This document shows, in pieces, positions 54,135 to 61,435 of a DNA stretch of 64,000 nt. The DNA comes from an uncultured Spirochaetaceae bacterium (GTDB lineage Bacteria > Spirochaetota > Spirochaetia > Sphaerochaetales > Sphaerochaetaceae): contig CALXLV010000011.1 in the NCBI GenBank assembly GCA_944389295.1, positions 62,001-126,000 on the forward strand, read 5' to 3'. Numbering within the stretch: the stretch's first letter is position 1; every line of letters starts with the position of its first letter. Under the pieces are notes generated by a model. It searched no databases, was not told where the DNA came from, and saw only the letters and a list, made by a program, of their open reading frames with translations. A program made the position numbers and the translations under genes.

Positions 54135-54907
54135 TGGAGAGCGAAGCGCTGAGACAGAGGTTTGAGGCGGCCAAGGAGATAGCTGATGCCGCATCCGCGT
54201 TCCTTCTTTCTCATGAGGATATGCGCTCCATGAGCGAGACGAAGGCTGAGAACGACTATGTCACCTCCGCCGACAGGGAGTGCGAGCGTCTGATAATCTC
54301 CTCTGTGATGAGAAAATTTCCCGATGATGCGGTCTACGGAGAGGAGAGCGGGGAAAGCGGCGGCGGAGGCGTCCGGTGGATAATCGATCCGATTGACGGC
54401 ACCGTTGATTTCATGGCCTCTTTTCCCGACTACACCGTCTCGATAGCGTTTGAGGACGAGGAGGGGATAGCCTTCGGCGTCGTCGCAGTGCCAAGACAGG
54501 GAGAGGTGTTCAGCGCCATGAGGGGCTGCGGGGCGTTCCTCAACGGCAGGAGGATCATGACGGATGAAACCACGCCGCTCGGAAAGACGCTTGCAATCCT
54601 CGTTCCTCCTCACAGGCATCACAGATATCTCCATGATTACATCGAGAGGATGGAGAGATTCTACTACCGTGTCTCCGACATGCGTTCGCTGGGATCGGCC
54701 GCAGTATCGCTCTGCTATGTGGCCTGCGGAAGATGCTCCATGTACTATGAGATAGGACTTCATCTCTATGATATCGCCGCCGGCATCGTTATTCTCAGCG
54801 AAGCTGGCGGACGTGTGACATTCCTTGACGCCAGAGAGGATTGGATAGAGATCGCAGCCTCCTCGGCTGCCGCCCATGAGGCGATGATGGAGTGCATCAA
54901 TGGTTAA
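54131..54907 (+). CDS. Inositol monophosphatase / CysQ-family phosphatase
   Basis: A 258-aa magnesium-dependent phosphatase: VYGEESGES (Glu ligand), 'WIIDPIDGTVDFMASFPDYT' (DPxDGTxxF), GAFLNGRRI, and LGSAAVSLCYVACG... LYDIAAG (usual WDxAAG). Substrate could be inositol phosphate, fructose-1,6-bisphosphate or PAP. The start may be ATG 54131 (overlap ATGA with the acidic protein) or 54134. Confidence 0.9.
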   Translation: MMESEALRQRFEAAKEIADAASAFLLSHEDMRSMSETKAENDYVTSADRECERLIISSVMRKFPDDAVYGEESGESGGGGVRWIIDPIDGTVDFMASFPDYTVSIAFEDEEGIAFGVVAVPRQGEVFSAMRGCGAFLNGRRIMTDETTPLGKTLAILVPPHRHHRYLHDYIERMERFYYRVSDMRSLGSAAVSLCYVACGRCSMYYEIGLHLYDIAAGIVILSEAGGRVTFLDAREDWIEIAASSAAAHEAMMECING

Positions 54908-55934
54908 GGCGGTGCTTTTTGATTTCGACGGCACTCTTGCCGATTCCTCCGCCGGAATATTCCACACGGCTCTTTATACAGTGAGGAAGATGGGGATAGA
55001 GCGCGAGTACAGCGATGATGAGCTCCGGCGCTTTGTCGGACCGCCTCTCAGGCGCTGTTTCGTTGAGGCTTTCGGCATGGATGAATCCCTTCTGGATGAA
55101 GCCGTGAGAATCTACAGGGAGGAGTACACTGCGCGTGGAATGCGCATGATGCATCTCTATCCGGGTATGAAGGAGCTTCTTGAGGCGCTGAGAGGAATGG
55201 GAATAAAGACTGGAGTGGCCTCGTTCAAGGCTGAGACGCTTGTGATCTCCTGCCTTGATGGACTTGGCGTGCATGACCTCTTTTCTGCCATCCATGGCTC
55301 CGATCTCGCTGGAACACTCACCAAAGGCGATATAATAGAGCTTGCGATCAAAGACCTCGGCGTGGACAGAGAGTGCGTGCTGATGGTCGGAGATACCGAG
55401 AACGACCGTCTCGGAGCGGAAGCTGCCGGTGTTCAATTCCTTGCTGTTACATACGGATTCGGATACCGGAGCGCATCCGATGTATGCGGATTTTCTGCAT
55501 CCTCTGCCGGTGAGATACTTTCTCTGGTGAAGAGGATGAATGGAGGAGATATGATAGAGAAAGTCGAGACAAAGTCGGCACCGGCCGCGATAGGGCCGTA
55601 CAGCCAGGCAGTAAAGGCAAATGGCATGGTGTTTGCTTCCGGACAGATACCCATTGATCCCGCGACAGGCGAGATCAGCGGAAAGACGGCCGCAGAGCAG
55701 GCCAGACAGGTGTTCTCAAACGTTAAGGCCGTCCTTGCCGCTGCCGGAACAGATATTGCAAAAGTCGTCAAGGCGACGGTGTTTCTTGCTGATATGGCGG
55801 ACTTCGGCGCAGTGAATGAGGTCTATGCCGAAGCGTTCAAAGATGCTCCTGTGCTTCCGGCGCGTTCCGCAGTGGCTGTTAAGACACTTCCGAAGAACGT
55901 GCAGGTAGAAGTTGAGGTCATCGCCCTGCAGTAA
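54900..55934 (+). CDS. HAD phosphatase - RidA (enamine/imine deaminase) fusion with an internal start
   Basis: A 344-aa reading frame. Residues 1-~212 are a phosphoglycolate-phosphatase-like HAD (LFDFDGTLADSS, GVASFKAETL, KGDIIELAI, 'LMVGDTENDRLGAEAAGV'). Residues 218-344 are a complete RidA starting MIEKVETKSAPAAIGPYSQAV with VFASGQIPIDPATG, KATVFLADMADF and catalytic-site Arg in LPARSAV. Directly before M218 (ATG 55551) stands TGGAGGAGAT, a full ribosome-binding site. So free RidA is probably also made. RidA removes reactive 2-aminoacrylate from PLP enzymes. Whether the join is real or hides a lost stop/frameshift cannot be settled here. Confidence 0.88.
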   Translation: MVKAVLFDFDGTLADSSAGIFHTALYTVRKMGIEREYSDDELRRFVGPPLRRCFVEAFGMDESLLDEAVRIYREEYTARGMRMMHLYPGMKELLEALRGMGIKTGVASFKAETLVISCLDGLGVHDLFSAIHGSDLAGTLTKGDIIELAIKDLGVDRECVLMVGDTENDRLGAEAAGVQFLAVTYGFGYRSASDVCGFSASSAGEILSLVKRMNGGDMIEKVETKSAPAAIGPYSQAVKANGMVFASGQIPIDPATGEISGKTAAEQARQVFSNVKAVLAAAGTDIAKVVKATVFLADMADFGAVNEVYAEAFKDAPVLPARSAVAVKTLPKNVQVEVEVIALQ

Positions 55935-56689: not shown

Positions 56690-57253
56690 TCAGCTGTTGA
56701 CCCTTTCAAGGTATTCCTTAGTCTCGGTGTTCACCCTGATCTTCTCGCCCTGCTTGATGAAGATAGGCACTCTCACGCGGAGGCCGGTCTCTGTAGTGAC
56801 ATACTTCGTGGCGCCCTGTACGGTATCGCCCTTGACGGCTTCCTCAGCCTCGGCGACGGTGAATACGATCTTTGAGGGGATGATGATGTCGAGCACCTGA
56901 TCCTCCCAGAAAGTAGCCCTGTAGGTCTCTCCTTCCTTCATGAAGTACTCGTAGTCGGGGAAGGACTTCATCGGGACATCGATCTGGTCGAATGTCTCCG
57001 CGTTCTGGAAGTAGAAGTTCTCGCCATCATTGTAGAGATACTGGAGGTCCTTGTCCTCGACCGTGATATCCTCAGCATTGTCCTGGCTCTTCATTGTCTC
57101 TGAGAGCACCTGTCCTGTAGCGGGGCTCTTGAGCTTGAGGCGGACGAAAGCGGAACCCTTGCCGGGATTCACGAACTCGCGTTCGATGCATACGAACGGC
57201 TGTCCTTTTATCAGAAGAGCCGTACCCTTGTCGATCTGACCTGCTTTAATCAT
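56690..57253 (-). CDS. efp: Elongation factor P
   Basis: A 187-aa EF-P that rescues ribosomes stalled at polyproline. Modification loop is NPGKGSAF with Lys32 at the tip; 'RLKLKSPATGQVLSETMKSQ', IPSKIVFTVAEAE, and C-terminal 'LRVRVPIFIKQGEKIRVNT' are conserved. EpmA is encoded directly upstream (18-nt gap), so Lys32 is probably beta-lysylated. RBS AGAGGTAGAAAAT. Confidence 0.97.
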   Translation of the reverse strand: MIKAGQIDKGTALLIKGQPFVCIEREFVNPGKGSAFVRLKLKSPATGQVLSETMKSQDNAEDITVEDKDLQYLYNDGENFYFQNAETFDQIDVPMKSFPDYEYFMKEGETYRATFWEDQVLDIIIPSKIVFTVAEAEEAVKGDTVQGATKYVTTETGLRVRVPIFIKQGEKIRVNTETKEYLERVNS

Positions 57254-57271: not shown

Positions 57272-58270
57272 TCAGACTGTTTCCGGTTTTTCCGGACGTA
57301 GCATATCAGAAAGAGGGAATAAAAGTAAAGGTGCAATGCAATTAAGTCCGAGATGGACGGCAAGGAGCCTGTCAAGTCCCATGGCGCCTCCGGATGACTG
57401 GGGAATGTCCAGCGACGGGAATGACGGATCGGCGGGGGGAATGACATCTCCCGTTCCCTGTCTTTCTCTCACAAGTCTCGCTTCCTCCTCCTCGAAGTAC
57501 TTCCTTGTCTCCTCCCTGTCCGTCTCCTCATCGTAGCAGTTCGCGATCTCTATCCCGGATATATACATCTCCCAGCGTTTCCTGCACGGTCTGTCCCCAT
57601 CCTTTTTCGCAAGGCATCTGATTCTGTCCGGGTATTGGGTGAGATAGACTTCCCTGTCCTTCGGAAGCGAAGGCTCGGTGTAGGTGAGGAATATCCTGTT
57701 GAATGTGTCATCCCAGCTCTCGCCGTCTCCAGGATGGAGCCCCAGCCTTACCGCCTCCTTCCTGAGGTAGCTGATGTCCTCCGCCCTGTCCATATCAACG
57801 CCTGCATATTTCATCATCGCCTCATGCATCGTTATGACAAGAGGCTTCTCGTCCATCCACGGTGCCCTTATTCCTTTGAGCGCTGTCTTTTCTATCATCT
57901 CGATGGTGATTCCGATTGAATCCTTCTCATCGGCGCCTGCAGTGTAGTACTCAAGCATCGTGAACTCGGGATTGTGCACATCCCCCAGCTGTTCGGCGTT
58001 GCGGAAGCACTGGGAAATCTGGAATATCGATCCGGAACCTGCCGCGAGGAGCTTTTTCATGAAGATTTCGGGGGAGGGAATAAGATAGAGGTCGCGGCAT
58101 CCCTCGAACTCGTTGATGAATCTGGTTCCGAACGCCTTTATCGTAGGCTCCGGAATAAGATACGGCGAGAGTGTCGGCGTCGATACCTCGAGATAGCCTT
58201 TAGAGATGAAATGAGTTCTTATGTTCATGAGAAGCTCGGAACGCTTCCTTGCGGCGTTGAAATCGTACAT
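57272..58270 (-). CDS. epmA: EF-P--(R)-beta-lysine ligase EpmA
   Basis: A 332-aa class II lysyl-tRNA-synthetase-like protein lacking the anticodon-binding domain (PoxA/GenX type). Visible: 'HFISKGYLEVSTPTLSPYLI', YLIPSPEIFMKKLLAAGSG, QISQCFRNAEQLGDVHNPEFTMLEYY (motif 2), and GGAMGLDRLLAVHLG (motif 3). It attaches beta-lysine to EF-P, encoded next. EpmB (beta-lysine maker) is not in this window. The start 58270 has no RBS and is placed 6 nt from TACAAT. Confidence 0.94.
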   Translation of the reverse strand: MYDFNAARKRSELLMNIRTHFISKGYLEVSTPTLSPYLIPEPTIKAFGTRFINEFEGCRDLYLIPSPEIFMKKLLAAGSGSIFQISQCFRNAEQLGDVHNPEFTMLEYYTAGADEKDSIGITIEMIEKTALKGIRAPWMDEKPLVITMHEAMMKYAGVDMDRAEDISYLRKEAVRLGLHPGDGESWDDTFNRIFLTYTEPSLPKDREVYLTQYPDRIRCLAKKDGDRPCRKRWEMYISGIEIANCYDEETDREETRKYFEEEEARLVRERQGTGDVIPPADPSFPSLDIPQSSGGAMGLDRLLAVHLGLNCIAPLLLFPLSDMLRPEKPETV

Positions 58271-58276
58271 GCCGCG

Positions 58277-58305
58277 ATTGTATTGCCCCTTGCCGCCAGT
58301 TTCAA
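58277..58305 (-). promoter_or_regulatory. Leaderless promoter of epmA
   Basis: On the minus strand: TTGAAA (58305-58300), 17-nt spacer, TACAAT (58282-58277), 6 nt, ATG 58270. It occupies the same DNA as the mnmE promoter in the opposite direction. Confidence 0.8.
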
Positions 58306-58311
58306 TACTAT
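58283..58311 (+). promoter_or_regulatory. Leaderless promoter of mnmE
   Basis: TTGCCC (58283-58288), 17-nt spacer, TACTAT (58306-58311), 6 nt, ATG 58318. Each -35 adjoins the -10 of the opposite promoter. Confidence 0.78.
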
Positions 58312-58317
58312 CTCGGT

Positions 58318-59634
58318 ATGGCACATTACGCTACAGACGAGCCGGTCTACGCGCTCGCGACTCCATACTCCCCCTCGGCTCTTGCGGTCATAAGGGCTTC
58401 CGGCGAGGGAGTGCTGTCAATTTTCCAGCCTTATTTCACCGGCAGGATAACGGATGCACCATCCGGGAAAGCCGTCCACGGATATGTAAAGGATGAGTGC
58501 GGCGAGCGGATTGACGAGGTCATGACAGTGGTCTACAGAAAGGGTCACGGCTACACCTCGGAGGAGGCTTTTGAGATCATGTGCCATGGTTCGCTTCCCG
58601 TTATACGTTCTCTTTCTGCGCTGCTTGAGCGTGCGGGAATAAGGGAGGCTGAACGCGGTGAGTTCACTTACCGCGCATTCATGCACGGACGCATGGACCT
58701 GACGGAAGCGGAAGCTGTCGAGGAGATCGTCAAAGCCCGGACGGAGAGGGCTGGATCGGATGCGCTCTCACGCCTCACAGGCTCGATCTACAGGGAGGCG
58801 GAGGCAATTAAGGATTCCGTTTTAAATATTCTCGCATCCCTTGAGGTCCAGCTTGATTACGGCGAGGACGAGATTCCCGAGGAGTGGGTGTTCCCTCATG
58901 AAGAGGTGCGCGCGATCATAACGCGCCTGCGGAGCATCGCAGCCACATTTGCCTCCTCCCGGCTCTACAGCGAGGGTGCCTCCGTCGTCATAGCCGGACG
59001 CACCAATGCCGGAAAAAGCTCTCTTTTCAACGCGCTTTTAAAGGAGAACAGGGCAATCGTATCCTCAGAGGAGGGGACGACCAGAGATTACATTGAGACA
59101 GAGGCGGTGATCCGAGGCATTCCCGTACGCCTCTTTGACACTGCGGGATTCAGGGAAACCGACGGAAGCATCGAGCTGGAAGGAATAAGAAGGACCGAAG
59201 AGCTTATGGAGAAGGCCGATCTCATCATATATGTCTCCGATCCCTCCTCCGGAGATGATCCTCACCCCGATGATGATTCCCGTACGCTGACGGTGAGCTC
59301 TAAGCGCGACATCACAGGCAGAGATGCGCCTCTCTCATTTTCATCGGTGACGGGAGAGGGACTCGATGAGGTCATAGATGCCATTGCGGAGAGACTTTCC
59401 CGCGGGACAGAGGCGCCTGAGGGTGTGCCGAGGATAGACTCGCTGCGCCAGAAGGAGAAGCTGGAGGAGACCGCAGAGGCTCTCGAGAGTGCGGAGCTGT
59501 CATCTTTCGCGGGTTTCGATATAATAGCAATGTACCTCCAGAGCGCGCTTTCATCGCTCGGAGAGCTTACAGGTGAGATAACAGGAGATGATATCCTCGA
59601 CCGTCTCTTCTCATCATTCTGCCTGGGGAAATGA
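58318..59634 (+). CDS. mnmE: tRNA modification GTPase MnmE
   Basis: A 438-aa GTPase acting with MnmG on U34 of tRNAs. N-terminal folate domain ('ALATPYSPSALAVIRASG'), helical domain, and G domain with P-loop AGRTNAGKSSLFN, G2 EGTTRDYIE, G3 DTAG. The G4 motif reads SSKRD instead of NKxD. C-terminal catalytic FCLGK is present (FCIGK). No RBS; leaderless promoter. It ends 1 nt before mnmG. Confidence 0.95.
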   Translation: MAHYATDEPVYALATPYSPSALAVIRASGEGVLSIFQPYFTGRITDAPSGKAVHGYVKDECGERIDEVMTVVYRKGHGYTSEEAFEIMCHGSLPVIRSLSALLERAGIREAERGEFTYRAFMHGRMDLTEAEAVEEIVKARTERAGSDALSRLTGSIYREAEAIKDSVLNILASLEVQLDYGEDEIPEEWVFPHEEVRAIITRLRSIAATFASSRLYSEGASVVIAGRTNAGKSSLFNALLKENRAIVSSEEGTTRDYIETEAVIRGIPVRLFDTAGFRETDGSIELEGIRRTEELMEKADLIIYVSDPSSGDDPHPDDDSRTLTVSSKRDITGRDAPLSFSSVTGEGLDEVIDAIAERLSRGTEAPEGVPRIDSLRQKEKLEETAEALESAELSSFAGFDIIAMYLQSALSSLGELTGEITGDDILDRLFSSFCLGK

Positions 59635-59635
59635 T

Positions 59636-61435
59636 ATGCGTGATTACGATGCGATAGTCATAGGGGGAGGTCATGCCGGCATAGAGGCATCCCTCTCGCT
59701 TGCCAGAGAGGGCTTTGACACACTCCTCATCACTCAATCTCTGGACGCGATAGGGCGCATGAGCTGCAATCCGTCAATCGGGGGACTTGCAAAGGGAAAC
59801 CTTGTCCGCGAGATAGATGCTCTCGGGGGTGAGATGGGACATCTGATAGACCGCACTATGATACAGATGAGGATTCTCAACAGACGCCGCGGTCCTGCAG
59901 TCCAGGCCCCGCGCGCACAGGCTGACAAGTTCAGCTACTCCAGGCTAGCCAAGGAGACGCTTGAGAAGGAGCACCATCTCTTCCTATTCATGGACACAGT
60001 CGTTGATTTCATTGTCGAGCAGGGGAGAATCGCAGGGGTAGTTACCGAGCGCGGCTGGAAGATATCCTCCCGCACAGCAGTGCTTACGACCGGCACGTTC
60101 ATGAACGGGAAGATATTCATAGGGGAGTATGAAGCTCCCTGCGGACGCCTGGGAGAGAGCGCGGCTGCAGGGCTCGGGGACAGGCTCCGGGAGAAGGGTT
60201 TCCGCGTGGGAAGGATGAAAACAGGAACTCCCGCCAGAGTCAGGAAGAGCTCCCTCGATTTCAGCGAGATGGAGCTGCAGGAGGGGGACGACCCGATGGA
60301 GCCTTTCTCCTTTGAGACAGAGCATGTTGATCGTCCGTCGCTTCCCTGCTATGTCACATACACCACGGAGGAGACGCACCGCATAATACGCAGCAATATC
60401 TCGCGCTCCCCGCTTTACGGCGGGAAGATAGTGGGACGCGGACCGAGATACTGTCCGTCGATAGAGGACAAGGTCGTCCGTTTCCCCGACAGGGAACGCC
60501 ATCAGATCTTCGTGGAGCCAGAGGGAGAAGGAACGGAGGAGATGTATCTCAACGGCCTTTCGTCATCGCTCCCGGAGGATGTCCAGCACAGTTTCATCCA
60601 CTCCGTTCCGGGACTGAGGCACGCTGAGATAATGCGTCCGGCATATGCTGTCGAGTATGATTACCTCAATCCGCTTGATCTCTTTCCGTCGCTTGAGAGC
60701 AAGCTCATCGGCGGACTTTTCATAGCAGGACAGACCAACGGCACCTCCGGCTACGAGGAGGCCGCAGCACAGGGAGTGATGGCGGGAATCAACGCCGCAC
60801 AGCTTCTGAAAGGGGAGAAGCCTCTGATCCTTTCCCGCACCGAAGCATACATCGGCGTACTCATCGACGATCTTGTCACGAAGGGTACGGAGGAGCCGTA
60901 CAGGATGTTCACATCCCGAGCGGAGCACAGGCTCTCGCTCCGCCACGACACTGCGGACCAGCGTCTCACTCCAAAAGGATTCGCGGCAGGACTTGCATCT
61001 CCTGAGCGTATGGAAAGGCTGAGGAAGAAGAGCGCTGAGATAGAGAGCGTGAAGATGCTTCTGCGTTCGGCGCGTGCCGGGAGCAAGAGTGCCTACGATG
61101 TTCTCAAAGAGCCTGAGGCGGACATATTTTCACTTCATATTGACGGGCTGGACAGTTATTCCGCGTCCGTTCTCCGCGAGGTGGAGCTTGATATAAAGTA
61201 TTCAGGCTATCTTCTGAGGCAGGAAAGAGAAATAGAGAAGGCAAAGCGTCTTGACAATATGGAGATTCCCGCCGATTTTGATTATGATTCAATAGATGGA
61301 ATCTCTTCCGAGTCGCGGGAGAAGTTCAAGGCCGTCAGGCCTGTTTCCATCGGGCAGGCGAGAAGGATATCGGGTGTCAGGGTTTCCGATATCGCTGTTC
61401 TCAGCGTTGCCGTAAGGAGCAGGGAGCGTGGATAA
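59636..61435 (+). CDS. mnmG: tRNA uridine 5-carboxymethylaminomethyl modification enzyme MnmG
   Basis: A 599-aa FAD protein: 'YDAIVIGGGHAGIEASLSLA', RMSCNPSIGGLAKGNLVREIDALGG, 'RRGPAVQAPRAQADKFSYS', 'LFIAGQTNGTSGYEEAAAQG', and 'RMFTSRAEHRLSLRHDTADQ'. Start ATG 59636 after GGGGAAATGAT; the longer upstream in-frame extension lies in mnmE. Forms the classic mnmE-mnmG-rsmG cluster. Confidence 0.96.
   Translation: MRDYDAIVIGGGHAGIEASLSLAREGFDTLLITQSLDAIGRMSCNPSIGGLAKGNLVREIDALGGEMGHLIDRTMIQMRILNRRRGPAVQAPRAQADKFSYSRLAKETLEKEHHLFLFMDTVVDFIVEQGRIAGVVTERGWKISSRTAVLTTGTFMNGKIFIGEYEAPCGRLGESAAAGLGDRLREKGFRVGRMKTGTPARVRKSSLDFSEMELQEGDDPMEPFSFETEHVDRPSLPCYVTYTTEETHRIIRSNISRSPLYGGKIVGRGPRYCPSIEDKVVRFPDRERHQIFVEPEGEGTEEMYLNGLSSSLPEDVQHSFIHSVPGLRHAEIMRPAYAVEYDYLNPLDLFPSLESKLIGGLFIAGQTNGTSGYEEAAAQGVMAGINAAQLLKGEKPLILSRTEAYIGVLIDDLVTKGTEEPYRMFTSRAEHRLSLRHDTADQRLTPKGFAAGLASPERMERLRKKSAEIESVKMLLRSARAGSKSAYDVLKEPEADIFSLHIDGLDSYSASVLREVELDIKYSGYLLRQEREIEKAKRLDNMEIPADFDYDSIDGISSESREKFKAVRPVSIGQARRISGVRVSDIAVLSVAVRSRERG

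Follow-up and report, generated by a model that had tools for sequence, protein, structure and literature searches.

A conserved pair of predicted overlapping, leaderless promoters between the divergent epmA and mnmE genes of an uncultured spirochaete

The efp-epmA/mnmE-mnmG locus and its putative promoters

The window, i.e., the whole stretch of 64,000 nucleotides of an uncultured Spirochaetaceae bacterium that was analyzed, contains the divergent genes epmA (minus strand) and mnmE (plus strand), whose starts are separated by a 47-bp gap (Table 1). The MnmE identity was above the cut-off of TIGR00450 (NCBIfam), and EpmA/GenX was the top NCBIfam match of the minus-strand gene, yet below its cut-off. 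Probably, the epmA unit has efp as its second gene and would carry EF-P itself plus the modifying enzyme. The four-gene arrangement efp-epmA/mnmE-mnmG was present in every near relative with a long enough flanking stretch. These near relatives are uncultured Spirochaetaceae/Spirochaetales genomes and Candidatus Ornithospirochaeta stercoripullorum, with one Sphaerochaetaceae genome more distant.

The loop of EF-P carries the PGKGSA lysine. The best match to EpmB (TIGR03821) in the genome, at G000:C7:25532-26320 (L215), reached 193 bits versus a cut-off of 369 bits, which leaves this step of EF-P modification without a clear assignment. A further observation in the window was a single ORF of 344 aa (54900-55934, plus strand) that fuses a HAD phosphatase domain (residues 5-183) to a RidA/L-PSP domain (residues 224-343).

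Table 1. Features of the epmA/mnmE gap and of the flanking genes (positions in the window)
Feature	Position	Strand	Remarks
efp (EF-P)	56690-57253	-	18 bp downstream of epmA; own SD-like AGAGG
epmA/genX (EF-P lysine ligase)	57272-58270	-	ATG at 58270; start conserved in 15 relatives
epmA leader	58271-58276	-	6 nt between -10 and ATG; without Shine-Dalgarno; expected +1 at the A of ATG
epmA -10	58277-58282	-	ATTGTA on plus, TACAAT on minus; invariant in 15 gap sequences (15/15)
mnmE -35	58283-58288	+	TTGCCC; invariant in the interlocked clade (15/15); TTACTC in a sister clade not needing an mnmE -35 there
Central 11 bp	58289-58299		Common to both 17-bp spacers; varies freely
epmA -35	58300-58305	-	TTTCAA on plus, TTGAAA on minus (8/15); TTGCAA in 7/15
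mnmE -10	58306-58311	+	TACTAT (13/15); TAGTAT in 2/15
mnmE leader	58312-58317	+	6 nt between -10 and ATG; 6 or 7 in relatives
mnmE (tRNA U34 modification GTPase)	58318-59634	+	ATG at 58318
mnmG	59636-61435	+	SD-like GGGGA; separated from mnmE by 1 bp, as second gene of its unit

The gap can be read as two opposing promoters of sigma70 type, TTGAAA-17-TACAAT-6-ATG on the minus strand, which would drive epmA(-efp), and TTGCCC-17-TACTAT-6-ATG on the plus strand, which would drive mnmE-mnmG. Both have a spacer of 17 and a leader of 6, and each -10 adjoins the opposite -35. The original prediction, which had placed these hexamers, spacers and leaders at 58271-58317, was correct to the base. Given the leader offset, 47 bp is the minimum gap for four crossed, non-overlapping hexamers (6+6+6+11+6+6+6), so that each -10 has to abut the opposite -35. 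As in overlapping divergent promoters of the pLS20/EcoRV type, the recognition elements of the two promoters lie on the same DNA; here, each -35 sits between the elements of the other promoter and the spacers overlap.

Concerning the leaders, both genes display the -10 arrangement of the leaderless definition of Zheng 2011 (TANNNT about 12 bp before the start, with +1 on the start codon), and neither leader contains a Shine-Dalgarno, which is the second sequence criterion of that definition. With a -10 so near the ATG, the expected first base of the transcript is the A of the ATG itself, and the predicted starts, 58270 and 58318, are 48 bp apart. A consensus scanner detected the epmA promoter (10/12) and missed the mnmE promoter (8/12, below threshold), the -35 (TTGCCC) and -10 of which match the E. 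coli consensus weakly.

Conservation of the layout and the leaderless signal of the genome

In the clade of the window, 15 different gap sequences share the layout, with MnmE identity down to 69%, and it is kept in at least 15 related species. The epmA spacer is 17 in all of them, the mnmE spacer is 17 in 14 and 18 in one, and the leaders are of 6–8. Conservation of the 47-bp layout had been proposed as a check, with loss of the spacing in close relatives counting against the prediction; in these relatives, the spacing was kept. The mean frequency of the commonest base in the 15 sequences was 1.00 for the epmA -10 and the mnmE -35, 0.98 for the mnmE -10 and 0.92 for the epmA -35, compared to 0.59 for the central spacer, 0.77 and 0.51 for the epmA and mnmE leaders, respectively, and 0.53 for the third codon positions of mnmE. 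The central spacer drifts like third codon positions while the hexamers are kept, which indicates that the layout is not due to chance. The epmA -35 has one variable base, giving TTGCAA or TTTCAA on the plus strand; this alternation preserves TTG on the minus strand only, and so the box appears to be read in the epmA direction.

A chance origin was also evaluated with dinucleotide shuffles of the gap, keeping the ATG fixed and counting those with a TANNNT -10 at 6–8 nt plus a TTG -35 at a spacer of 16–18. Shuffles of the 47-bp gap satisfied this on the mnmE side in 0.4%, on the epmA side in 0.05% and on both sides in 0/20,000. Among 70 gaps (window plus relatives), both sides did so in 35 versus 0.0 expected from shuffles, a result that is supportive only, since the 70 loci are phylogenetically dependent and the two-box criterion was set after the pattern had been seen. 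Together, shuffles and hexamer footprint rule out a chance origin of the layout.

The occurrence of the same promoter style elsewhere was analyzed in stretches totalling 1.11 of the 1.98 Mb of the genome (L057-L116 plus the window; G000), using home-made gene calls and considering the 442 first-of-unit genes, i.e., those divergent from, or far from, their upstream neighbour. A sharp peak of TANNNT 6–8 nt before the start was found in 99 of them, versus a background of about 28 (24–33 at control offsets; binomial P about 3e-28). A Shine-Dalgarno motif was present in 5% of these 99 genes versus 59% of the remaining first-of-unit genes, and in the leaderless-type set a TTG precedes the -10 by 17 nt (T 73%, T 51%, G 46%). 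Hence, putative leaderless promoters of sigma70 type occur widely in the genome, and the epmA/mnmE pair follows this general style, which rules out that leaderlessness is special to this pair. Among 122 divergent pairs, at least one side was leaderless in 61, and both sides in 11 versus 10.6 expected under independence, so double-leaderless pairs find no support as a selected architecture. One genome of the separate family genus g3 (G055) gave a weak leaderless excess (8 at 6 nt versus a background of 4.3).

In Spirochaetes, leaderless genes that carry TANNNT at about 12 bp from the start were already known (PMC3160421), and they were reported in a TSS map of Leptospira (PMC5243855). Like epmA and mnmE, the bacterial leaderless genes of both studies have the -10 directly before the start codon and no Shine-Dalgarno. 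The earlier survey gave an average of 3.9% leaderless genes in 6/18 spirochaete genomes (PMC3160421); the excess is larger here, about one fifth, with a different denominator (first-of-unit genes only). Three other compact divergent gaps, of 48–57 bp, also had a leaderless -10 on both sides: L099:14947-14995 (unknown protein/Y-family polymerase), L086:4443-4496 (NIF3/LonB-like protease) and L060:10335-10392 (AI-2E transporter/SpoU methylase).

The strongest evidence for the promoter pair is the footprint in the 15 sequences together with the genome-wide leaderless signal. These, with the hexamers and their spacing, support the earlier proposal of two opposing, interlocked, leaderless promoters. 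One or both genes could instead be expressed with a leader from an upstream promoter located inside the opposite gene, considering that the starts in the gap are predicted and that the mnmE promoter fell below the scanner threshold. However, no Shine-Dalgarno precedes either ATG, the hexamers are nearly invariant over 15 sequences and the same leaderless pattern is seen genome-wide, which makes such an arrangement very improbable.

Packing of the two promoters in relatives

In most family genomes that were read, epmA and mnmE are divergent, and in most of them a leaderless promoter can be recognised on either side, the assignment in distant rows being the best of several candidates and less certain. 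Four kinds of packing were distinguished. The interlocked one, with gaps of 47–50, occurs in the window's clade, and looser crossed forms, with gaps of 50–57, in genus g12. In the shared packing (gaps 64–68), one palindromic -35 TTGCAA serves both promoters. In the half-overlap packing (gaps 62–64), the -35s share three bases. Finally, the promoters lie apart in gaps of 75–159, the overlap being abandoned in relatives with gaps of 123, 131 and 159. Outside the family, none of 14 mnmE-upstream stretches from other families in the phylum gave an EpmA match; 3 of them were also without MnmE match and hence uninformative.

In the MnmE tree, the 15 interlocked rows group in a single clade (SH-aLRT 94), beside five shared (99, starred) and four overlapping (97, starred) rows; all these rows and L140 (shared) make up one starred clade of 25. 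The shared TTGCAA was also found in genus g3 (L038-L046). The gaps of 64/65 (shared) and 47/48 (interlocked) differ by 17, and the comparison of TTGCAATA...ACAATCGCGGT (shared) with TTGCAATACTAT (interlocked) can be read as the loss of roughly one spacer by deletion. The interlocked form is thus probably derived from the shared one by loss of about 17 bp. The occurrence of the shared form outside the clade as well (L150, genus g3) points to it as ancestral, a state deduced by parsimony with deep branches partly open and a repeated origin of the shared form possible. In such an ancestor, as suggested by the relatives, both promoters most likely used a single -35, the palindrome TTGCAA, and the gap measured about 64 bp; the loss of about 17 bp would have placed the mnmE -10 beside the TTGCAA box, and a new mnmE -35 TTGCCC would have arisen beside the epmA -10, taking over from TTACTC. 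The same offset of -17 in L037 (genus g12), which belongs to a separate clade (96, starred), indicates that the interlock appears to have arisen twice.

The near-palindromic halves of the gap (ATTGTATTGC ... GCAATACTAT), and the recurrence in the family of TTGCAA, itself a palindrome, raise the alternative that the conserved inverted repeat is the operator of a regulator, its likeness to promoters being secondary. Against it, the halves are exactly -10 plus -35 hexamers with 17-bp spacing and a fixed distance to ATG, the change of TTGCAA to TTTCAA destroys the symmetry yet preserves the minus-strand -35, and TTGCCC is replaced by TTACTC in the shared -35 sister clade, where no -35 is needed at that place. 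It seems reasonable to give an operator of this kind little credence. As a separate observation, in the shared -35 clade (L015, L020, L021, L022 and L138) conservation extends to the mnmE spacer, ATAAGMGCTTATGATGCA, with its inverted repeat ATAAG-CTTAT, which could be either an operator or the outcome of recent common descent.

Mutual exclusion and its possible consequences

An RNA polymerase covers about -55 to +20 of a promoter. With predicted starts 48 bp apart, mutual exclusion of two polymerases is likely; in agreement with the original prediction, the geometry implies that only one polymerase would be bound at a time.

Several known systems resemble this arrangement. In pLS20, the Pc and Pr promoters are also sigma70-type and lie on opposite strands of the same DNA, and with the regulator present they are part of a switch (PMC4207663). 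There, the -10/-35 boxes coincide with the opposite -35/-10 and a dedicated regulator and DNA looping take part (PMC4207663), whereas the boxes of the epmA/mnmE gap abut and serve two leaderless housekeeping genes with no known regulator. The EcoRV and CfrBI restriction-modification promoters are likewise divergent with overlapping RNA polymerase sites, and the transcription of their two sides is coupled, but EcoRV is under C protein control and its C transcript is not leaderless (PMC5333194). Mutual exclusion of opposing polymerases on one short sequence is also a trait of the bidirectional promoters of Warman/Grainger, which share a -10 element and have starts 7–25 bp apart (PMC12825309, PMC10268837); the epmA/mnmE pair, whose predicted starts are separated by 48 bp and which shares no hexamer, is not a bidirectional promoter in that sense. 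A literature search on divergent mnmE plus epmA found nothing.

The original prediction went further, in that the interlock would hard-wire a competition between EF-P modification and tRNA wobble modification. Put in terms of selection, the interlock would be favoured for the shutting of one promoter by the firing of the other, and it would trade EF-P function against wobble modification. The exclusive geometry kept over 15 gap sequences, the overlapping or shared -35 of sister clades, the second, apparently independent interlock with equal offset in L037, the switch of pLS20 (PMC4207663) and the described coupling of the EcoRV pair (PMC5333194) are consistent with it. On the other hand, the gaps of 123–159 bp show the overlap lost in some relatives, double-leaderless pairs match chance pairing in frequency, no regulator or activator site was identified at the pair, and antagonism is without evident benefit when EF-P and tRNA modification both support translation. 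In addition, the basal activity of E. coli bidirectional promoters is too weak for competition; strong activation of one side represses the other, and interference lowers noise (PMC12825309). Any competition between epmA and mnmE for RNA polymerase may well be minor. A selected competition is considered unlikely, and the hard-wired trade-off between EF-P and tRNA modification stays unproven and is not favoured. It is similarly doubtful that selection in Sphaerochaetaceae holds the promoters of both operons within one polymerase footprint, be it through the shared palindromic -35, the half-overlapping -35s or the interlock, and so ties the output ratio or noise of the two translation-quality systems without a regulator.

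We judge from sequence that these are real, conserved overlapping divergent promoters, both leaderless, and that the genome-wide leaderless habit plus compact packing explain the layout. In our opinion, a quite likely explanation is that epmA(-efp) and mnmE-mnmG are driven by two compactly paired, divergent and leaderless housekeeping-sigma promoters, with the ancestry proposed above and the working mode that follows. Both units would likely be expressed constitutively and interfere little at basal rates, mutual damping being possible only under strong activation of one side.

The relatives provide a natural series for one operon pair in related species (shared palindromic -35, half-overlap, interlock and apart), by which the consequences of RNA polymerase exclusion are testable by comparison. 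Moreover, leaderless transcription is indicated as common in an uncultured (gut-type) spirochaete genus, which bears on the prediction of gene starts there.
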